From: Cylindrospermum stagnale PCC 7417 | GTDB lineage: Bacteria; Cyanobacteriota; Cyanobacteriia; Cyanobacteriales; Nostocaceae | Length of the DNA stretch: 64,000 nucleotides | NCBI RefSeq assembly: GCF_000317535.1 | Contig: NC_019757.1 | Location: 2,992,501 to 3,056,500, forward strand | Reading direction: 5' to 3' | Shown: piece after piece, positions 837 through 21,259 of the stretch | How positions within the stretch are numbered: position 1 is the stretch's first letter | How the letters are laid out: every line of letters begins with the position of its first letter | Program-made: the position numbers and the translations under genes | Notes under the pieces: model-generated | Told to the model about the DNA's origin: nothing | Seen by the model: the letters and a program-made list of their open reading frames with translations, nothing else | Databases searched by the model: none

Positions 837-2096
837 ATGCAAGATTTAACGATATTTCTGTCTAAGTCTTTGCTAAGTTGGCTGGCAATTCAGGTGGTTT
901 TAACACTGTTCTTTGTCTGGTATTTGCGCCCAAGCCAGAAAGACTTATTACCAGATGACCAGTTACCGAAAACGGCGGTGATTATTTGTCTGCGAGGTGC
1001 TGATCCATTTCTGCCCAACTGTTTGCGATCGCTATTAAAGCAGAATTACCCAGAATATGATTTAAAGATAATCCTCGATAGTCAGGAAGATCCAGCCGGA
1101 AAAATTGCTTCGGAAGCGATCGCCGAATTAGGGGCCACCAATGTCCAAATTAGCCATTTGCGGACAGTACGCCACAATTGCAGTCTCAAATGTAGTTCTC
1201 TCGTCCAAGCTGTCTCAGATTTGGACGATTCTTACAAGGTGGTGGCTTTTGTCGATGCTGATACAATCGTTCATCCCAATTGGCTGCGGGAATTAGTCAG
1301 CCCTCTCGCTGACGAGAAAGTGGGAGCAACAACAGGTAATCGTTGGTATTCACCCACAGGTAATTATTGGGGTACTTTGGTGCGATATGCAGGCAATGTC
1401 TCCACCGTAGTGCAAATGTTCCTGTTTCAGATTCCTTGGGGTGGAACTTTGGCGATCAAAACAGAAGTGCTTCACCAAACCGGACTACTAGAAAAGTGGA
1501 GTCAGGCTTTCAACGATGATCTAATGATGCACAACGTCCTGAAAAAACATAAGTTGCAGGTGAAGTTTGTGCCTTCGTTATTGATGGTGAATCGGGAAGA
1601 AAGCAGTTTACCGGATTTAGTAGACCATCTCAAGCGTTTATTACTTTGTTCTCGACTATATCACCCGCGTTGGTTGGCTTTAGTGAGTGATGCTATTTCC
1701 AGCATTTTGTTTCCTACTTTAGTCATAGTGTTAATTCTACAGTCGTTGTTGGTCGGACAATGGAATGCTGCGGCTCAATTATTTAGTTACTATGGCATCT
1801 ATATTCTAGGACTACTCTTGCTGATGCTTGTCTTAGAACAAGGGGTACAGCGAGTAATGAGCGTTCAAGGTCAGACAATCGCTAAATTGTCACCTACCGC
1901 AGTTATCAAAATGTTGATTGCTATCCCTCTAACACAGTGGGTTTATGGGGTAGCGATCCTATCTTCCCTTTGGATGTCAACAGTTAAATGGCGCGGACTT
2001 TCCTATCGAGTCCAAGGCCCTTGGAATATTCGCCTAGTTGAATACCGCCCTTACCAGTGGTTAGATCAACCTGTTGATCCAAAAACTTCTCTCTAA
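837..2096 (+). CDS. Membrane GT2 family glycosyltransferase
   Basis: A 419-residue processive-type family 2 glycosyltransferase. An N-terminal membrane segment (about residues 8-30) is followed by the cytoplasmic GT-A domain with the nucleotide-sugar/metal motif DAD (about residues 140-142) and the catalytic-base region FNDDLMMH (about 225-232). Several C-terminal membrane helices lie in the last 140 residues. The layout resembles ceramide glucosyltransferase or cellulose-synthase-like enzymes that make a glycolipid or polymer at the membrane. The ATG at 837 has a GGAG 12-16 nt upstream; a TTG at 768 would add 23 residues. The acceptor cannot be told from sequence. A GT4 gene follows, so the two may act on the same glycan (inference). 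Confidence 0.82.
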   Translation: MQDLTIFLSKSLLSWLAIQVVLTLFFVWYLRPSQKDLLPDDQLPKTAVIICLRGADPFLPNCLRSLLKQNYPEYDLKIILDSQEDPAGKIASEAIAELGATNVQISHLRTVRHNCSLKCSSLVQAVSDLDDSYKVVAFVDADTIVHPNWLRELVSPLADEKVGATTGNRWYSPTGNYWGTLVRYAGNVSTVVQMFLFQIPWGGTLAIKTEVLHQTGLLEKWSQAFNDDLMMHNVLKKHKLQVKFVPSLLMVNREESSLPDLVDHLKRLLLCSRLYHPRWLALVSDAISSILFPTLVIVLILQSLLVGQWNAAAQLFSYYGIYILGLLLLMLVLEQGVQRVMSVQGQTIAKLSPTAVIKMLIAIPLTQWVYGVAILSSLWMSTVKWRGLSYRVQGPWNIRLVEYRPYQWLDQPVDPKTSL

Positions 2097-2180
2097 TAGG
2101 TAATAGCTAGTAGGTAATGGGTAATAGGTAATTGTTTTATTTCCATTAGCCATTACCTATTAGCTATTAACCATTAATCA
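2097..2180. repeat. Nostoc-type short tandem repeats (heptamer-like)
   Basis: Imperfect copies of TAATAGGTAATGGGTAATAG-type units are followed by the inverse CATTACCTATTAGC-type units, so the transcript could fold into a loose hairpin between the two glycosyltransferase genes. STRRs of this kind are common in heterocystous cyanobacteria and have no agreed function. Confidence 0.7.
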
Positions 2181-2206
2181 TTTTTCATGCAACATCCGCT
2201 TTAATT

Positions 2207-3469
2207 ATGACAAAGCAACCTCTTCGTATTGCACTTTTTACAGGATTGTATGCTCCCTTCTTAACAGGAGTCTCGGTGGCAGTGCATCAACGGGTTCGCT
2301 GGTTGCTACAGCAGGGACATGAAGTTTTTCTGATCCATCCAGAAATCAACAACCAGTACCCAAAACATGTTGGGAATCGTCCCATGCCAGGGCTAGAAGA
2401 ATTACAGTCTTTTCCCAACTTCTCCTCTTATGCATTCCCCACAAAACCGCTGATTTTTTACAAATCTCTGCCTCAACCATTGCACTATCGATATTGGAGT
2501 GATACCAAGTTACTCTTAAAATTTCAACCCGACATTATTGTAGTTGAAGAAGCACCGCAAATGAGAGGAGTCTACTCACTCTTTTTGCAAGGTTATGGTC
2601 GTCCTGTTGGCACTGAATACGCAAAGCGAACGGGCATTCCAATTATATCAATGTTCCATACCGATATTGTGGCCTATATCCAATATTATTTAGGCAATCT
2701 GGCCTTTAGCTTAATCCGTCCAATTCTGCCAATTTTAGTCAAGCAGACAACAGAGGCTTACGACATTAATTTATTTCCTTCTCAAGAACAACTCAAAAAA
2801 TACCAAAAATTGAAATCTCAACGCAGTGAATACGTCCCTTATCAAGGTATTGATTGCGAAAAATTTCATCCCCGAAATATCTGTTATGACCCGATTCCTG
2901 ATGACCATCGACCAACGATATTGTTTGTCGGCCGGATAACTGCGGAAAAAAATGTCAACCAACTATTAGATGCATATCCGTTGATCGCTGCCAAAATTCC
3001 TGATGTTCATTTGGTGATTATTGGTAGTGGCCCAATGGATGAAGAAATCCGTCAGCGTGCCCAAACTTTTGGATCTGGTGTGACTGTTTGGGGTGAGTCT
3101 CACGGTACAGAACTTTTGGGTTGGTTCGCTAGCGCCGACGTATTTGTCAACCCCTCCGCGACTGAAAATTTCTGCACCACCAATAACGAAGCGCTGGCTT
3201 CTGGAACTCCTTTAGTTGCAGTTGTCGCACCCTCAACAGCCGAGCAAGTATATCCTGGTAAAAACGGCTTCCTCGCAGAACCCAACAACCCGAAAGATTT
3301 TGCCCAAAAGGTAATTGCGATTCTAGAAAATCCTGACCTCAAAGCAGAGATGACTCAGCAAGCTCGCTCTTCTATTCTGGCATTTGATTGGTCGGCTTGT
3401 AGCCAAAAGTTTGAAGATAAACTTTACCAGATAGTTGAAAATTCATCAAAAGTACCAGTGGGAAAATAA
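2207..3469 (+). CDS. GT4 family glycosyltransferase (GT-B fold)
   Basis: A 420-residue retaining glycosyltransferase. The N-terminal acceptor domain carries the glycine-rich start (ALFTGLYAPFLTGVS). The C-terminal nucleotide-sugar domain begins near FVGRITAEKN (about residue 240) and holds the E-x7-E-type motif in SATENFCTTNNEALASG (about 318-330). The family includes sulfoquinovosyl- and mannosyl-transferases acting on lipids and exopolysaccharides; the donor here is not determined. The first ATG is used, 110 nt after the GT2 gene on the same strand. A strong terminator lies about 240 nt downstream. Confidence 0.85.
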   Translation: MTKQPLRIALFTGLYAPFLTGVSVAVHQRVRWLLQQGHEVFLIHPEINNQYPKHVGNRPMPGLEELQSFPNFSSYAFPTKPLIFYKSLPQPLHYRYWSDTKLLLKFQPDIIVVEEAPQMRGVYSLFLQGYGRPVGTEYAKRTGIPIISMFHTDIVAYIQYYLGNLAFSLIRPILPILVKQTTEAYDINLFPSQEQLKKYQKLKSQRSEYVPYQGIDCEKFHPRNICYDPIPDDHRPTILFVGRITAEKNVNQLLDAYPLIAAKIPDVHLVIIGSGPMDEEIRQRAQTFGSGVTVWGESHGTELLGWFASADVFVNPSATENFCTTNNEALASGTPLVAVVAPSTAEQVYPGKNGFLAEPNNPKDFAQKVIAILENPDLKAEMTQQARSSILAFDWSACSQKFEDKLYQIVENSSKVPVGK

Positions 3470-7489: not shown

Positions 7490-7561
<72 letters not shown>

Positions 7562-11594: not shown

Positions 11595-12746
11595 TCAAAA
11601 ATCAGGACACTCAGAGGCTGCTACTTCTGGGTGGCAATAGTAAGCAAGCACCGTAGCGGTATTGTCACCAAGCCAGTAAGCCACCTTGTCCGGGCTGTTG
11701 CCGCTGCTGATTGCCCATGTAGCAAAGGTGTGGCGAGTCGCATATGGCTTGAGGTAGGGAACAATGCCCTTATCCGCTAGTTCGCGAACTACGCCAGGAT
11801 ATTTATATTTGATTTCGCCGCGCTGCGATCGCCGCGATCGCCAAAAGACGGACATAGAATCTGAGTTTATCTGTTTGCCAATTGTTGAAACAAATACCAG
11901 GTCTGTAGCGATCGCGCCGACCGGACGAATAGACAGCAACAGCGACTGCAACTTTGACCCGGATTGACAAGGGAATACTCGCTTCTTACCATTCTTGGTT
12001 CCCTTGAGTATCCGGTGATAGTTTCGCGATTTATTTATTGAGATACGACAGCAATCATTAGAGATATCTCCCCAGGTCAGAGCGAATGCTTCACCCGGCC
12101 TACAGCCGCTCCAGAATAAAAATTTTATTAGGGGGGCATAGTGGGAATGTTTTGGGTGATTCTCAAATGCCTGGATAATTATGTCTCTCTGCTCTAGGGT
12201 AAAAGCGCGATAGTCATCATCCCTGCTTGACTTTTTGGGCTTTTGAATTTTGAGTTTGGCGAATGGATTTTCTTTGATTAAACCGCACCCAACGGCCCAT
12301 TCACAGCAGCTGCAAAAATCGCCTAGCAACTGCCAAGTCATATAACTGGTGAAATTCACTAACATCCAGTTACGGATGATAGCGGCATCAGCCAATTTTT
12401 GAGATGGCAGGCGGTCGACGTATCGCCTAACAGATTTGTATTTGCCCAGCAGAGTAGTTTGTTCTAGTTGGGCAGACTTGAACTCTGTAAATTTCTCCCA
12501 TAGTTCAGAGAGCGAGTATTCAATAGTCTGTGGAATTTCCTTAACCCCGAATCTGTAGCGAACGAGGGTGGGGTCAAATATACCTAAAGAAATTTCTCGC
12601 TGGATTTCCTCCCAGCGAGAATCTACGATCACTCTATTTTTGGCTGAATCTTTTAGCCCGGAGTTTAAGTAAAATTGTTTGATATGTCCCGTGACTCTAA
12701 AGCGAACTATCAATTTATTTGATTTAGGGTCAACGGTTATAGCCAT
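11595..12746 (-). CDS. int: Tyrosine recombinase/integrase
   Basis: A 383-residue phage-type integrase. The N-terminal SAM-like core-binding domain covers about 80-165 and the catalytic domain about 175-375. Catalytic Arg216 is in WSGCRPGEA, a Lys in the GTKNGKKR turn (about 251-254), Arg338-His339 in PYATRHTF, and the nucleophile is Tyr369 or Tyr370 in LAYYCHP. The usual first His of HxxR is Tyr335 and the LGH His is Asp361; similar PYxTRHTF and LGN/LGD variants are known in cyanobacterial integrases, so this need not mean decay. It inserts and excises the element at att sites; its 3' end abuts the left-end repeat. It is the last gene of the leftward early operon, one base after the acidic 122-residue gene. 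Confidence 0.92.
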   Translation of the reverse strand: MAITVDPKSNKLIVRFRVTGHIKQFYLNSGLKDSAKNRVIVDSRWEEIQREISLGIFDPTLVRYRFGVKEIPQTIEYSLSELWEKFTEFKSAQLEQTTLLGKYKSVRRYVDRLPSQKLADAAIIRNWMLVNFTSYMTWQLLGDFCSCCEWAVGCGLIKENPFAKLKIQKPKKSSRDDDYRAFTLEQRDIIIQAFENHPKHSHYAPLIKFLFWSGCRPGEAFALTWGDISNDCCRISINKSRNYHRILKGTKNGKKRVFPCQSGSKLQSLLLSIRPVGAIATDLVFVSTIGKQINSDSMSVFWRSRRSQRGEIKYKYPGVVRELADKGIVPYLKPYATRHTFATWAISSGNSPDKVAYWLGDNTATVLAYYCHPEVAASECPDF

Positions 12747-14613: not shown

Positions 14614-15089
14614 TGTTCTTTGATTAATGGAACTCGTTTCTGAACTAGGATGCATCCTTCCTCTGGGTCAAGTTTAATGAGAATCAATTCGTCACCATTC
14701 TGTATGATGAATTCCTCCTTATCTGCTGCTTGAAATATTGCTGTGGCAAGTCTGCCGCATTCTTTGCTTAAAAGGCTTAGCTCTTGCTGTTTTTGAACAT
14801 ACAAGTCTAGGACTTGTTGGCGACGAATTACTAACTTAGATAATTCGGTTGGGATTTGCTGGGGTTCCATTTGTTTTACCGATATACTACTTTCTTCGAC
14901 GATTGGTATGCCTTGCATCTCCTGATAAAGCACACAAGAGTAAATCTCTGTGTGCTCAACAGGCTCGTTACTGGTTGGATGAGTGCAAAAAGGAACTCTT
15001 TTAAGTTTGTGCCCATCCAGGAACCTTAGGAATGAGCAGGATACACAGAGAGAGAATTCATCGTCAACGAGAAAAATTGCTTCATTCAT
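14610..15089 (-). CDS. Unknown 159-residue Cys-containing protein
   Basis: First coding gene downstream of the structured RNA. The N-terminal half has scattered Cys (LCVSCSF, PFCTHPT, IYSCVLY) that could form a zinc site. The centre is a coiled coil (SKLVIRRQQVLDLYVQKQQELSLLSKE, about 85-112), and the C terminus is a beta region with FIIQNGDELILIKLD. No family recognised. The ATG at 15089 has only a weak ribosome site, so the RNA leader may affect expression. Confidence 0.55.
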   Translation of the reverse strand: MNEAIFLVDDEFSLCVSCSFLRFLDGHKLKRVPFCTHPTSNEPVEHTEIYSCVLYQEMQGIPIVEESSISVKQMEPQQIPTELSKLVIRRQQVLDLYVQKQQELSLLSKECGRLATAIFQAADKEEFIIQNGDELILIKLDPEEGCILVQKRVPLIKEQ

Positions 15090-15393
15090 TGTTTAACTTG
15101 TGAACTGAATTTTTCACAGCATCGCAGTTCGTTGGTTTACTGGCAGGCTGCTTCTCTGCCTTATTTCGCTGTGGGGTTTAAAGGGTTTCTCTCCACCCTT
15201 AAAGTCAAGTCTCTAGTCGATCACTCCAGCGTTACCTTTCGGTTTTACCCAAGTGTCGATATTGATTCCCAGTCAATGCCGGCTGACTTTCGCCTCTCCT
15301 TTACGGGCTGGGTTCCCGTCCTTGGGTGTCTAGGTTTCCCCTTGGAATTGCTACTAGTCCCTGTTATTTGGCAGGGCATCCCTAGCGCGAAAG

Positions 15394-15535
15394 GGGAGAT
15401 GACAGGATTTGAACCTGCATGGTTATGTCTCGACTGTGTAGTGTTTCTCTCTAGAAAGAATCTGACTACTTTTTCAACAGTTCGTGGTACCTTGCGTGAC
15501 CCTTGCTAGCGTTTGCCAATTTCGCCACATCTCCC
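15394..15535 (-). tRNA. tRNA-Leu-like gene with an extra stem-loop (142 nt)
   Basis: On the minus strand the acceptor stem GGGAGAT (15535-15529) pairs with ATCTCCC (15400-15394). The D arm GTGGCGAAATTGGCAAACGC is of tRNA-Leu type, and the T arm GCAGGTTCAAATCCTGT is canonical. Between them lie 90 nt instead of about 45. They contain a stem CTGTGTAGT (15434-15442) paired with 15465-15469 and 15477-15480 around a 7-nt bulge. I cannot place a normal anticodon arm, so it may be intron-bearing, a tRNA-like domain of the surrounding RNA, or a decayed tRNA. CCA is not encoded. Confidence 0.5.
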
Positions 15536-15541
15536 ATAAAA

Positions 15542-15566
15542 GCCAGCAGCCATCTACACTGCTGGC
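15542..15566 (-). terminator. 8-bp hairpin just upstream of the tRNA-like gene
   Basis: GCCAGCAG / CTGCTGGC with a 9-nt loop, followed on the minus strand by TTTTAT and then directly by the tRNA-like acceptor stem. It could attenuate leftward transcription after the repressor, or be a helix of the larger RNA and a processing signal for the tRNA. Confidence 0.45.
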
Positions 15567-15800
15567 GAACTTACATCATTAAATTAATAGTGAGTAAATG
15601 CCAGTTACTTGTGATTTTCGTCTGTGGACTCCTTTTGGTTGGGTGGCTTGGAGGTGATCATCACTGGGTGATGTCTAAACTTTTCCTCACGGTCCCGTTG
15701 GAATATATGAGGGTGCTTTCTCCTGAATGAACCGCACGGGGCACGGTGGCAGTGTGCGGGGGAGAGTGGAGGCAGGCATTTAGCCTGCCAGGCAACAACA

Positions 15801-16043
15801 TTAACCAGCGCTAACAGGCTGTTCTGCTTCAAAGGCTTCTATCAAGTCATCAAGCGAACATTGGTAGACCTCACACAATTTTTTAATCTTGGATGGGGGA
15901 AGGTGCGGAATACCTCCTTTTTCCCAACCTCCAACAGTTTGAGTCTGTATGTCTAGCGCTTGGGCAACTTGTCTTTGAGTTAGATTGACTTTTTTTCTCA
16001 AGGACATTGGAGTTAATGCTTTTCTTTCAGGCTGCTTTGTCAT
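15801..16043 (-). CDS. XRE-family HTH repressor-like regulator
   Basis: 80 residues; a single helix-turn-helix of Cro/CI type: LRKKVNLTQRQVAQALDIQTQTVGGWEKG, then PSKIKKLCEVYQCSLDDLIEAF. The start is ATG 16043; a longer frame to 16244 exists, but its extra N terminus is unlike the family and runs through the operator. Inverted half-sites lie just upstream (16057-16103), consistent with autoregulation. It probably controls the leftward early operon, including the structured RNA. It has no cleavage or dimerisation domain, so it would not be a LexA-cleaved type. Confidence 0.85.
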   Translation of the reverse strand: MTKQPERKALTPMSLRKKVNLTQRQVAQALDIQTQTVGGWEKGGIPHLPPSKIKKLCEVYQCSLDDLIEAFEAEQPVSAG

Positions 16044-16056
16044 AGTATACGATAAG

Positions 16057-16103
16057 CAGATGTGTTTAGCATATCTGTTTAATAAATATGTTTCACACAT
16101 CTG
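16057..16103. promoter_or_regulatory. Candidate operator half-sites of the repressor
   Basis: CAGATGTG (16057-16064) is followed after 5 nt by the inverted CATATCTG (16070-16077, one mismatch) and later by a second inverted copy CACATCTG (16096-16103). Located immediately upstream of the repressor start; TATACT abuts the start codon and may be the -10 of a leaderless or divergent promoter. Confidence 0.5.
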
Positions 16104-16249
16104 AAGTAAAGGGTTAGTGAGCGGATCTGCTGAACACACTCCGCTCACTCTTAGGATCTCACAGCCGTTGAAAATGCGCGAAAGCTTTGTGACAGACCGA
16201 GTTCTACATAAGCAAGTACCTTTATTTGAAGACGGCACCCACAAGTAAA

Positions 16250-16269
16250 CCCACCTATATATAGGTGGG
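16250..16269. repeat. Perfect 20-bp palindrome
   Basis: CCCACCTATA followed directly by TATAGGTGGG. It lies between the KGK gene and the repressor and could be a factor-binding site or a weak terminator of the leftward KGK transcript (TTTACTT follows on that strand). Confidence 0.55.
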
Positions 16270-16303
16270 CAGCAATAAAAGGAGGCGATCAGTATGTGAT
16301 TAG

Positions 16304-16624
16304 TTAGCTAAGATTTGCTCGAAGGTCATCCAGCGGTGATTGTGGCTGAAGTGAAAGTGAATCGTCTGGTGGTTTTGGCGATGCTTTTGGCTGATTAGGA
16401 ATGAACTCCATCCGAAGTCTAAATCTACCTTTTTGCCAGCCACCACCTTCTGATAGTAGAAGGCTGCCATCAACCCCATCGCCCATCCAGTTACCCAGTC
16501 CTTTTAGCCATTCTGTGATCATCGAGTATTTAACCTCACTCACTTTTGATGTTGTGGTCTTGGTGAAGTTCTGGCTCACATTTATACAGACGACATCATC
16601 ATCTTTCAAAGTAATTACATTCAT
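16304..16624 (-). CDS. KGK-domain-like protein
   Basis: 106 residues. NVITLKDDDVVCINVSQ at the N terminus and GGGWQKGRFRLRMEFIPNQP near residue 60-80 match the pattern of KGK-domain proteins, a family found almost only in cyanobacteria and of unknown function. The C terminus is Pro/Ser-rich and low-complexity. A plus-strand frame over the same bases is a shadow. It is upstream of the repressor on the same strand. Assignment is by remembered pattern. Confidence 0.6.
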   Translation of the reverse strand: MNVITLKDDDVVCINVSQNFTKTTTSKVSEVKYSMITEWLKGLGNWMGDGVDGSLLLSEGGGWQKGRFRLRMEFIPNQPKASPKPPDDSLSLQPQSPLDDLRANLS

Positions 16625-17660: not shown

Positions 17661-17761
17661 CCCTACACCCAACATAATCAGGCTGATGTAATCGACTCAC
17701 AGAGCACAGCATCCCCTTCCAGGCATAGATAGCCGCTTTAAAACGACAGGAATTGTATAAT

Positions 17762-20700
17762 ATGGCAAGAACAAAAAAAAGCGGCGAAGCGTCAACTTCA
17801 ACCGCAGTAAAATTAAAACAATCTGATTCAATTGTATCAGATAAATACGCCGAAACGCCACAGCCGCAAGACATCCAGCCTACGAAAACAGTAAGCCAGG
17901 AACAAAACAAGTTTGCTAGCTTCCAAGAATTCAAAACATTTGTTAAGACCAATTTCATAGAAGGCAGTGGCATTGCCCCCGAACTATTCGCCGAATGTAT
18001 AGAATTCCATACAGATTTAGAAGCCAGTGCTGGCAACGACGCCGAATATCCCATACATGAGTTGCTCAACTGGAAACAACCAACCATATATGGACATCAA
18101 GCCCGCGAAACAATCTACGCGGCTATGTTCAAAAATGAAGATGGCAGTATATGGCAGGGCATAATTAGTCGGTGGGATGAAAAAAGCAAAAAGCCCTATC
18201 AATATCTGGCTCCAACCCAAAACGGCGATCGCGTTTTTCTTCCTCCAGTACCTAACAGTATTCGCAGAAAAATAGGCTCACGCTATGGGGTAGAGGTGCC
18301 CGAAGAGGGTAGTTTCTGGGAGTGGCTGAAGGAAGCTACTCAAGTAGAAATTTCTCGGGCCGGTGGAGATGGTAATTTTACCGCCTACACCGGTAGCCTT
18401 GTTCCGTTAAAGGTTCCACGGATTGTTACTGAGGGCGGTAAAAAGGGATTGGCTCTACTCACTCAAGGCTACATTCCGCTATCGCTCTACGGTTGTACGT
18501 GTGGGGGGAGGGAAGGATTAATTCCCGATTTGAGACAGTTTAATCAGGAAGGTTCAATTTGGTTGCTAGCGTTTGACCGTGACAGCAAAGAGGAAACTAG
18601 GCGAAAAGTTAACGCCGCCAAACGCAAATTAGAAAAAGTCTTAGCCAAGGACGGATTCAAGAACTACATAGAGGATATTGTTTGGTCATCAGAAGATGGC
18701 AAAGGAGTTGATGACCTCATAGTTAACAAAGGATTTGGAGCCTTTGACACAGCTTACAGCCGTGCGTTAAGCAGATTAGAAAAACAATTTTCAGGAGCTG
18801 CTAGTGGAACGGCTGACGAACCAGAGAAACATAAAAATGCACCGCCTGACCAGATGGCGAAAAAGATAGCTGAAGACTATCGCGGCAAGCTGGCTTTTAA
18901 CGATGAAACTAAGCAATGGATGAGATACGGAGACGACCTTAACCGTTCACTTGATGACTTGCCGTTTGGCATATGGTCACCTGAGTCTAACGAGTACATG
19001 GAGGCTATTGTCTACAAAATATTAGTAGGCAAAGAGGTCGAAGCATTTGCATTTGGTGCAGATTACGTTAGCAGTGTCCTGAAGCTGTTACGCCATGAAC
19101 TTATAGAGCGGCGTTGGAACGAAGTATCACCCCGTGAATACCTGCCTTTTACCAATGGCGTGGTGGAGATTGCAACAAGGAAACTACTACCTCACACCCC
19201 TGGTTACAAACTCACCTGGAGTTTACCAAGAGAATATTCAACAGATGGCGGTAGCTGGGACAATATCAGCAACTTCCTAGAACACTTATCAAATGGCAAT
19301 GCTGACATTAAAGAACTGTTGATTTGCTACTGCAACGCCGTAATCAAGGGACGGTATGACCTTCAGAAATTTATTCACCTAATTGGACTTGGTGGAACTG
19401 GTAAAGGTACTTTTACCCGATTGGTAACTGAATTGATTGGCGATCAGAACGTTTTGGTAACCAACCTCCCAGCCTGGTGCATGAACCAGTTTGAAGGAGC
19501 GAACGCATTTGGTAAGCGGCTGGTGATATTCCCAGATGAAGACCCCTACAGAGGAAGCATAGGAAGATTCCTCAGCTTAACTGGCGAAGATAAAGTTAGG
19601 GCTGAGGAAAAAGGTAAACGAGCATTCAACTTTGACTATCAAGGGATGACTCTGGTAGTTTCCAATTTTCCCGTTTTTAGCGGTGGCAGCAGCAGCCGTG
19701 CTAAACGCCGGACAATTACAGTTCCCTGCAACAAGATTGTCTCGGAGGGTCAGCGGAAACAGTTATCTAAAATCTTTGAGCCAGAATTAGCAGCATTCAC
19801 CAACTACCTGCTTTCACTCGCTGACGATCATGTTACCGCTGTACTAAAGGGAGAGAAGGAAATTCCCCAGTGTACCCTTGAGTTCTGGGAAAACCAGATG
19901 AAGGGTGATTCAGTCGCCGCGTGGGTGAATGAACGGGTTGTCTATGATCCGATGGCTTTAACCCCAATTGGTAACGACAGGAATGAAGGTGTTAACGGGG
20001 CGGATGTCTACACTTTGTTTGGCTCCTATATTCGTCACTGCCTCGCTTCTGGTGATTCACCTAAGAGTTGCAAGGTCTTTAGCCCGGATCTTATAGAGCT
20101 ATGCCACACAATCTTAAACTGGCCCGTCGAGAAACAGCGCACAAAAACAGGCGTGTTCATTAAAGGGCTGCGGCTTAGAGTTCCGGTCAAGGATAACGAA
20201 ATTCCACACTATGACTATTGGCTCATGAGCCGGGTGTTGGATGATGTAGGGTCGGGTGTAGGATTGGGTGTAGGGTTGAAAGCCTTGCCCTGCAAAGAAG
20301 ATGTAGGATATGTAGGATTTGCAGGGGGTTCGCTGGGGGAGGGAGTAAATAAAACTGAACTTGTAATTAATTCTGTGCAAAATCAACAGGCAGCAGATGG
20401 GGAGGAAAGCGATCGCGCTTCCCAGACGCTAGGCACTGACAGAGGATACAAACCAGGCGATCGGGTTTTTTCCACCCATCCACTACAAGGCGGAGAGCTT
20501 GTTGTGCAGGATTACCCTTATGAAGGGGACTTTAACTTTATACGCACTGTTGACCACTCGCTCGTTTATGTTGGTTATTTAAAAAAAGTAGTCGAGGTTT
20601 GCGAGGCAACCCAGAATTTTGGTCCTGGGGACAAAGTGAGAATCATCAACCAAAACTGCGACTGCTTTGGGCAAGAGGATGAAATTACCGCTATCTACTC

Positions 20701-21259
20701 AATGGCGAAAGAAGCAAAGCTAAAGGTGAACGGACGATTACCTTTTGATTTTCTGGATCTGGTACAGCGAGCACCAGCACCAGCTCTGGAAAATTCTCTA
20801 AACATCACAGAAGAGAAACCCCTGCCAACACCAATGGAATTTTCTTTCCCTGGAATATTTGGAGAAACTAAGATTTTGGTGGAATTCACTGGACGACCGA
20901 AAAAGGGCGGCGTAACCTTTAATATCAGCTTCACCTTTCCATCTGGGAAAGGGGCGACGCTCAAGAATACCTTTATCCCAACATTGGGGAAAGAAAAATC
21001 CATTGAGGCAATTAAGGCGATCGCTCTAGAGAAGATTGAAGCGTGGCAGTCCAAGGCGATGCTAAAGAAGGGCAGGCTCTACTCTGTTCGGCAGGTAGGT
21101 GACGAAGATTGTCTTGATTATATTTGGGCGTTAGATTGTGCGCTCGTGTCCGTCCCTAATCCACCATTTTCTAATCAATATATATTTAGCCACGATGGCA
21201 AGACGATTGTAGCGAGTGATTTATCCGAATTCCGGTGGCAGGCGCCTGGCGAGTCATGA
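17762..21259 (+). CDS. Primase/SF3-helicase replication protein (CyRepA1- or P4-alpha-like)
   Basis: A 1165-residue initiator. The N-terminal third holds a TOPRIM-like DUF3854 domain (GGKKGLALLTQGY near 225; LLAFDRDSKEET near 267-278; VDDLIV). The centre is a D5-type superfamily 3 helicase: Walker A GLGGTGKGTFT (about 542-552), Walker B RLVIFPDED (about 585-593), sensor VVSNFPVF (about 632-639). Then comes a Gly/Val-rich linker coded by TGTAGG repeats (about 829-855) and a C-terminal region with KOW/SH3-like strands (PGDKVRII). Such proteins open and prime a specific origin. ATG 17762 is preferred over TTG 17753. The 104-bp tandem repeats right after the gene are the likely origin. Confidence 0.85.
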   Translation: MARTKKSGEASTSTAVKLKQSDSIVSDKYAETPQPQDIQPTKTVSQEQNKFASFQEFKTFVKTNFIEGSGIAPELFAECIEFHTDLEASAGNDAEYPIHELLNWKQPTIYGHQARETIYAAMFKNEDGSIWQGIISRWDEKSKKPYQYLAPTQNGDRVFLPPVPNSIRRKIGSRYGVEVPEEGSFWEWLKEATQVEISRAGGDGNFTAYTGSLVPLKVPRIVTEGGKKGLALLTQGYIPLSLYGCTCGGREGLIPDLRQFNQEGSIWLLAFDRDSKEETRRKVNAAKRKLEKVLAKDGFKNYIEDIVWSSEDGKGVDDLIVNKGFGAFDTAYSRALSRLEKQFSGAASGTADEPEKHKNAPPDQMAKKIAEDYRGKLAFNDETKQWMRYGDDLNRSLDDLPFGIWSPESNEYMEAIVYKILVGKEVEAFAFGADYVSSVLKLLRHELIERRWNEVSPREYLPFTNGVVEIATRKLLPHTPGYKLTWSLPREYSTDGGSWDNISNFLEHLSNGNADIKELLICYCNAVIKGRYDLQKFIHLIGLGGTGKGTFTRLVTELIGDQNVLVTNLPAWCMNQFEGANAFGKRLVIFPDEDPYRGSIGRFLSLTGEDKVRAEEKGKRAFNFDYQGMTLVVSNFPVFSGGSSSRAKRRTITVPCNKIVSEGQRKQLSKIFEPELAAFTNYLLSLADDHVTAVLKGEKEIPQCTLEFWENQMKGDSVAAWVNERVVYDPMALTPIGNDRNEGVNGADVYTLFGSYIRHCLASGDSPKSCKVFSPDLIELCHTILNWPVEKQRTKTGVFIKGLRLRVPVKDNEIPHYDYWLMSRVLDDVGSGVGLGVGLKALPCKEDVGYVGFAGGSLGEGVNKTELVINSVQNQQAADGEESDRASQTLGTDRGYKPGDRVFSTHPLQGGELVVQDYPYEGDFNFIRTVDHSLVYVGYLKKVVEVCEATQNFGPGDKVRIINQNCDCFGQEDEITAIYSMAKEAKLKVNGRLPFDFLDLVQRAPAPALENSLNITEEKPLPTPMEFSFPGIFGETKILVEFTGRPKKGGVTFNISFTFPSGKGATLKNTFIPTLGKEKSIEAIKAIALEKIEAWQSKAMLKKGRLYSVRQVGDEDCLDYIWALDCALVSVPNPPFSNQYIFSHDGKTIVASDLSEFRWQAPGES

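Follow-up and report, generated by a model that had tools for sequence, protein, structure and literature searches.

Two conserved RNA families and a tRNA-like structure in a candidate leader of a prophage-like element of Cylindrospermum stagnale

On the minus strand, positions 15765 to 15115 of the window (the whole 64,000-nucleotide stretch of Cylindrospermum stagnale PCC 7417 DNA analysed here) form a non-coding chain of structured modules before an early operon, and not one closed RNA of 660 nt. In transcript order these are module Y, a terminator-like hairpin, a tRNA-like structure (TLS), domain X, and a pseudoknot element, PK (Table 1). Neither of the two well-conserved RNA families among them, Y and PK, matches an Rfam entry. 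With less than even confidence, we read the locus as an untranslated leader that opens the early operon, on the integrase side, of a prophage-like element; its RNA modules probably help to decide whether the viral-type genes are transcribed. The first-pass annotation had proposed a new class of RNA in cyanobacterial mobile elements; this idea survives as two RNA families accompanied by two rare modules, and not as a single RNA of about 660 nt.

Table 1. Features of the candidate leader and its surroundings, in window positions
Feature	Position	Strand	Basis
KGK-domain gene upstream of the leader	16304..16624	-	PF08872, E 3.4e-10
Terminator-like hairpin 3' of the KGK gene	16249..16270	-	terminator scan
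Cro/C1-type HTH gene, co-directional with the leader	15801..16043	-	HTH_3, E 1.2e-12; phrog_8 transcriptional regulator
Perfect local hairpin GGCAGGC-TAAAT-GCCTGCC	15771..15789	-	sequence
Module Y	15682..15765	-	R3 match; 32-locus alignment A11 with covariation
Intrinsic-terminator-like hairpin, tail TTTTAT	15542..15566	-	-17.5 kcal/mol
tRNA-like structure (TLS), anticodon arm replaced	15394..15535	-	similar TLS in G054 leader
Domain X, structured	15174..15391	-	202/219 columns identical to congener G001
PK element	15115..15173	-	R2 match 40.2 bits, E 2e-9; covariation
First ORF of the early operon, 159 aa	14610..15089	-	ORF list
Integrase, end of the operon	11595..12746	-	phrog_1, E 2e-37

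About 710 nt without a plausible gene separate the stop codon of the HTH gene from the small ORF that opens the early operon, whose product has no family match in PHROGs, Pfam, PADLOC, or NCBIfam. The earlier view that no plausible protein is encoded here is borne out: the longest ORFs inside the stretch all start with TTG (125 aa and 75 aa on the plus strand, 75 aa on the minus strand), no conserved ORF was found in the interval, and the homologous stretch of a congener (G001) carries two one-base indels across 279 columns, which argues against coding. The proposed position between a phage-type repressor and an early operon likewise holds, given the Cro/C1-type HTH gene on one side and the integrase-ending operon on the other. 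We call the element prophage-like because of the KGK gene, a DUF3854/DUF5906/D5-type primase gene, and a weak tape-measure match further along it. The large primase gene (17753-21259, plus strand) has at most 30% identity to known phage records among the best 10 of 532 matches. An intact tRNA-Cys gene (7490-7561, plus strand) lies towards the left side of the element; no run of 14 or more of its bases is repeated elsewhere in the window, so there is no sign of an attachment-site role.

The stretch is structured, as had been claimed: its minimum free energy (MFE) is -204.5 kcal/mol, whereas 20 shuffles average -178.5 (z -4.26). Rfam reports nothing in it at gathering scores and, at E up to 10, four sub-threshold matches only, none of them GOLLD, ROOL, an intron, or a tRNA; group I and II introns and HEARO are absent among the matches, and tmRNA has no ARAGORN or Rfam match in the stretch. 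On these grounds we rejected GOLLD, ROOL, introns, tRNA, and tmRNA as identities for the stretch, and with them the suggestion of a distant GOLLD or ROOL relative. A hairpin-ribozyme match at 15174-15141 was also rejected; it scores 22.6 bits against a gathering score of 65 and overlaps part of PK. The limits first given for the RNA, 15131..15796, have shifted, since PK extends to 15115 and Y begins at 15765. The helix proposed to join the two ends did not stand up. The 10-nt match is exact and was equalled in 1 of 300 shuffles, the ends having been picked for the match; both arms lie in local structures, the 5' arm inside the perfect hairpin at 15789-15771 and the 3' arm containing the 3' strand of PK P2. 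The congener reads AGCCTTCCAG at this site, and no exact upstream partner was found there.

Among 100 related genomes, blastn with the stretch gave a match in four, own genome included. G001 carries the 3' part (15125-15391) at 91% identity in the same position, upstream of an integrase-ending operon, and the matches in G054 and G072 are tRNA-like pieces only, that of G072 lying inside a tRNA-Pro gene. The whole stretch had no blastn match in plasmids; it matched 167 phage records, the best 20 of which align with the tRNA-like part only. The window and G001 are hybrids that carry KGK, Y, and PK. The G001 element encodes a collagen-like GDKGDKG protein (L035:2409-3215) and is adjoined by two genes that we take to be PsbA-like. 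These genes, the relatedness of the genomes, and the first-pass annotation are the grounds for taking the hosts to be cyanobacteria. The genome searches below scored a subset of first-look candidates (in the R2 class search, 16 per genome of often 1000-3000), so the tallies of true elements may be too low; in one similarity search, most of the 71 matches at E <=0.1 were noise-like.

PK consists of helices P1 (CACAGC/GCUGUG) and P2 (GGCAG/CUGCC) and a pseudoknot helix (GCAG/CUGC, four pairs in the window), with strongly conserved loops (AGAGAU..GCAGCC, AAAGA or AACGA). The 3' 59 bases of the window copy recur between early genes of G001 and several times in a second G001 element. With one PK repeat as query, G001 has eight matches (E <=0.02) in two elements and none elsewhere (L037, L035:9521-9927), and G000 and G002 have none; this looks like local amplification. 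R1, a covariance model of the 59-nt unit with P1 and P2 that included the window (the pseudoknot helix is in no model), matched 63 of 217 family genomes at E <=0.1, chance matches included. Of the 28 R1 loci fetched outside the own genome and G001, 22 carry PK on reading, 5 are coding-like, and 1 is partial (L073). On reading, four of those set aside (L058, L059, L063, L070) seem to be the same conserved coding sequence, which contains a GCGATCGC site, and L061 was placed with them on a score equal to that of L059.

Covariation in homologs, which the first-pass annotation had named among the checks to make, is present in both PK and Y beyond shuffles on the main measures. Alignment A9 was made with MAFFT from R1 matches; A11 (P1, P2, and P3) and A12 (P1 and P2) were fitted to the model structures. 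In 26 PK elements, without the window and G001, the 16 pairs are 91.9% paired, 9 pairs have changed on both sides, and none of 500 shuffles reaches any of five covariation measures. The model built from these 26 (R2), from which the window and G001 were left out, finds the window PK in a 119-kb search at the score in Table 1. In 319 genomes of the class, R2 matched two, namely the own genome and G060, which belongs to a second family; an own-genome match of R2, L197, was set aside, as it lies inside an ORF resembling a glutathione transferase. In 61 genomes of that second family, four have matches, at five loci, of which four have on reading an HTH-like ORF within 1.3 kb and four have by eye a promoter-like -10 (L196 scores no better than shuffles). 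In a third family, PK lies 3' of what appears by eye to be a TTGACT-type promoter (L023). Aligned together, the 53 PK matches make up 50 distinct rows from three families, counting the partial row L071:1706-1767 of A12. Pairing across their 16 pairs stands at 91.5%, and both sides have changed in 11 pairs and 121 cells; none of 500 shuffles reaches the cells, score, or percentage, two reach the pair count, and one the pair types. P2 pairs locally in 95.9% of cells, with four of its five pairs doubly changed. Taken alone, the pseudoknot helix is 95.5% paired, and its 18 cells with changes on both sides are equalled by 0 of 500 shuffles; the pair count and pair types are weaker evidence (reached by 53 and 15 of 500 shuffles). 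Ten PK loci had no Rfam family match at E up to 1, a PK leader had no blastn match in plasmids, and a strict PK pattern had no match in viral contigs. A further motif, CCCRTAAGTCGTAGCG, sits in a likely hairpin at 11 of 231 loci, 10 of them PK loci (L053-L076 and L212, for example L054:1595-1610 and 1674-1689), and is possibly a third leader element.

The match in G054 led to a second leader, which is divergent from an HTH-like ORF and has its own tRNA-like piece. As a DNA query in 208 family genomes, this leader matched 10, G054 included, and eight further loci carry its 5' module, Y. The parts of Y are P1 (UCUCC/GGAGA), P2 (CCGCAC/GUGCGG), a conserved AAGCACC, and P3 (CCUCAU/GUGAGG), and most matches are 65-86 nt long with two stem-loops. 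A model from five Y loci, with that of G054 and without the window (R3), finds the window Y at 22.2 bits (E 1.2e-5 in 1.8 kb, 0.0012 in 174 kb) and the G001 Y at 18.2 bits (E 0.014). Across the 208 genomes, 28 have an R3 match at E <=0.05; all 21 newly fetched loci (L205-L225) show the Y motif on reading, and several share the P2 loop style of the window (UGCC..GUGCC). Neither the Y of the window nor that of G001 was reported in this whole-genome search, both being found in direct searches only, so the whole-genome significance of the window Y is modest. It is a modest match whose identity is supported by its position, its order among the modules, and its likeness to L206 and L211.

In the 32 aligned Y loci, the 15 pairs are 98.3% paired, and 6 pairs and 26 cells have changed on both sides (0 of 500 shuffles); the pair-type count was reached by 12 of 500 shuffles. 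Rfam has no family match for 10 loci, nine of them with Y, at E up to 1. In the second family, R3 matched 1 of 61 genomes, and this match (L231) was set aside because it lies inside an ORF resembling a GTPase; Y is thus known from one family, the R3 search having covered two. The Y leader had no blastn match in plasmids or phages, and a strict Y pattern had none in viral contigs. A single leader carries Y and PK one after the other in the window and at L035, L214, and L225 (the last two being the only such cases among the 21 loci L205-L225), and each also occurs without the other. Comparison shows Y and PK to be two RNA families, each folding on its own, that recur at operon heads across many relatives, frequently close to repressor-like genes. 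A promoter-proximal hairpin of the AACCAGCC..GGCTGGTT type stands before Y, or occurs without it, in L182, L186, L187, L189, L190, and L192, and is possibly another leader element.

Promoter-like and terminator-like sites are over-represented around these families, in tallies that count the loci of related genomes one by one. Within 100 nt upstream of Y, 16 of 32 loci have a promoter-like site of at least 9/12 (7.1 expected) and 7 of 32 one of at least 10/12 (1.4 expected); upstream of PK, the counts are 11 of 24 (6.5 expected) and 7 of 24 (1.2 expected), respectively. The median distance of the sites of at least 9/12 is 35 nt for Y and 38 nt for PK. In the window, the best such site in the 100 nt before Y scores 7/12, no better than shuffles, and when 14900-16400 was scanned with a promoter consensus, neither the leader nor the sequence upstream of the HTH gene yielded a minus-strand promoter. 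Hairpins of <=-13 kcal/mol with a T-rich tail occur within 260 nt 3' of Y at 17 of 32 loci against 1.6 expected, and 10 of these 17 sit 52-59 nt downstream of Y. The other 15 loci have none at this threshold, the nearest relative (L035) has none at any threshold, and the hairpin after Y in G054 fails the terminator test. Duplexes of Y with its own terminator are no better than those with mismatched terminators (4367 of 5000 permutations as good; 16 loci), and a role of Y as a classic attenuator was therefore rejected for these 16 loci, pairing at a single locus being possible. The terminator of the window lies upstream of X and PK, so X and PK cannot govern it. A KGK-like ORF is present at 18 of 25 PK loci, 1 of 30 Y loci, and 0 of 29 other loci, counts made with an HMM that took four of its six seeds from PK loci and with one true PK locus, L023, among the 29, fetched on weak query similarity.

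The tRNA-Leu-like gene that had been seen in the centre of the stretch stands as a tRNA-like structure and not as a tRNA. The TLS (15535-15394) has an 8-bp acceptor stem, a 3-bp D stem, T8, A14, G18G19, and a TTC T loop, that is, the acceptor, D, and T arms with the invariant bases by which we recognized a tRNA-like piece. Between its D stem and T arm lie 90 nt without an anticodon arm; ARAGORN and Rfam call no tRNA at this position, a full cloverleaf with an anticodon loop is absent, and the TLS cannot read codons. Folded without constraints, it does not adopt a cloverleaf at the MFE (z -1.65). The TLS of the G054 leader, which is 98 nt long and has a 46-nt insert, does adopt a cloverleaf (z -3.16), and between the two an A-U pair of the 8-bp acceptor has changed to G-C in a compensatory manner. 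In both leaders, the TLS comes after Y and a hairpin that has a short run of T, and the gap between hairpin and TLS is 6 nt in the window and 28 nt in G054. Of 388 genomes of the order, these two alone contain the D-arm string. A strict TLS scan of L035-L076, L182-L227, and the window returned, duplicate copies of loci aside, the two TLSs, the ordinary tRNA-Cys at 7490, and nothing else; a pattern with fixed spacing had no match in viral contigs. Genome and viral collections hold the D-arm string at 38 and 63 loci, respectively, and many carriers are tRNAs by ARAGORN. By eye, at least five carriers have a T arm and an acceptor without a normal anticodon arm: L162, L181, L161, and L134 on viral contigs and L117 in a Thalassospira MAG are tRNA-Leu-like with longer insertions replacing that arm, and ARAGORN calls no tRNA in any of them.

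Domain X may be an accessory domain. Among all loci fetched, the X pattern matched only copies of the window and G001 loci, and two X patterns, one of them of 30 exact bases, gave 0 and 0 matches in viral contigs. Across X and PK, 3 of 73 predicted pairs are doubly changed with pairing kept, two of them in X, a result that is suggestive only.

Our best guess at a mechanism, tentatively held, is antitermination by the nascent RNA, resembling HK022 put, with the TLS as a processing site. Y, and probably PK, would act in cis on the nascent transcript: they would take up their folds while RNA polymerase is moving away from the early promoter, and would alter the elongation complex in such a way that neither the leader terminator nor later ones stop it. 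The TLS, by its shape, could be a substrate for RNase P (at its 5' end) and tRNase Z (at its 3' end), whose cuts would part the regulatory leader from the X-PK-mRNA portion. This reading is suggested by the frequent place of Y and PK after promoter-like sites, the terminator-like hairpins 3' of Y, the put-like anatomy of Y, the lack of any sign of Y-terminator pairing, the succession of Y and PK in four leaders, the preserved TLS acceptor, and the cloverleaf fold of the G054 TLS. Against it count the window's lack of a detected promoter, the 15 of 32 Y loci without a terminator at the threshold, the results for L035 and G054 in the terminator test, the placement of the window's terminator-like hairpin before X and PK, the restriction of the TLS to two leaders, the MFE fold of the window TLS, the modest match of the window Y, and the PK copies between early genes of G001, which fit binding sites equally well. 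A broader form is more doubtful: an RNA-only early-gene switch of cyanobacterial temperate elements, in which two unrelated put-like families would serve as cassettes and some leaders would add a TLS to which RNase P, or a different enzyme that handles tRNAs, is brought so that the leader is cut or regulated.

A serious rival, possible if on the improbable side, is that Y and PK are operators or sensors through which a phage or host protein or a small ligand controls the translation or termination of early genes. PK repeats before several early genes of G001 are what one would expect for a protein with many mRNA targets, and the strong conservation of the PK loops and the terminators 3' of Y fit as well; however, KGK, the one gene family tested, is not a constant neighbour of both elements, and no alternative Y-terminator pairing was seen. 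We consider it unlikely that promoter, Y, and terminator make up an independent trans-acting sRNA that serves to take over the host, to confer immunity, or to evade defences, while leaky read-through accounts for expression of the operon. Part of the loci do form a short unit like an sRNA gene, but in L187-type loci the first gene begins about 45 nt after the terminator, which leaves little room for another promoter, nearly half of the Y loci have no clear terminator, and PK copies stand in tandem and between genes. Degeneration of a tRNA plus chance structure in a decaying prophage is very improbable, and for Y and PK is already refuted: the missing anticodon and the confinement of X to one genus would suit decay, but PK (in three families) and Y (in one) show compensatory changes, TLS pairs are kept through a double change, and X is nearly identical in the congener. 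A single giant ornate RNA of the GOLLD or ROOL kind, folded end to end and assembling into particles, draws on the length, inner tRNA-like piece, low folding energy, and complementary ends of the stretch, but it is already weakened and hardly credible given that Rfam has no match, Y and PK occur apart, and the end helix clashes with PK, which covaries, and has no counterpart in the congener.

Several known systems resemble parts of this leader. GOLLD and ROOL share with it the phage or prophage setting, a large structured stretch, and a tRNA nearby or inside; they differ in that no covariance model matches here and the modules are separable and not one fold, and the separate occurrence of Y and PK speaks against one large RNA-only multimer of that kind. 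GOLLD linkers sometimes hold tRNAs (PMC12286853). The D arm, T arm, and acceptor of the TLS are tRNA-like, and phage tRNA-Leu genes share its D arm; in contrast to these, the TLS has, in place of an anticodon arm, 90 nt in the window or 46 nt in G054, and it sits in a leader. If numbered as a tRNA, its outermost acceptor pair is G-1:C73, which is typical of tRNA-His and not of tRNA-Leu. Type III toxin-antitoxin RNAs consist of pseudoknot repeats with the toxin gene just downstream; the early genes of the window have no toxin match in PHROGs (6), Pfam (4), PADLOC, or NCBIfam (7 each), a divergent toxin being possible. The epsC (EAR) and JUMPstart RNAs act in processive antitermination and, like the leader described here, are cis-acting leader RNAs of long operons; they differ in that neither the stretch, nor Y, nor PK has an Rfam match to either of them and that the operon here is of phage type. 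Both are listed in PMC2864571.

In the excerpts consulted of the open-licence literature on phage, prophage, and cyanobacterial structured RNAs and on antitermination, we found no description of Y, PK, or the TLS. Together, Y and PK offer a compact system for asking how prophage-type elements of cyanobacteria switch on their early genes, and their covariance models can be used to find more such elements, while an anticodon-less TLS in a DNA-phage-type leader offers a case in which tRNA mimicry beyond the RNA viruses can be tested. The closest comparison is with the put RNAs of the lambdoid phage HK022, which, as described in PMC9378689, are about 70 nt long with two stem-loops and bring about protein-free antitermination through the β' zinc-binding domain, putL lying just after PL and putR about 270 nt after the start of PR. 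The two systems differ in that PK is a pseudoknot, the hosts are not the same, and a put-like function here is predicted. Compared by description, Y is likewise short, has two stem-loops, and stands at the head of a predicted phage-type early transcript with terminator-like hairpins downstream, and the window Y is putR-like in place, beginning 278 nt after the start codon of the Cro-like HTH gene, where no promoter was found.
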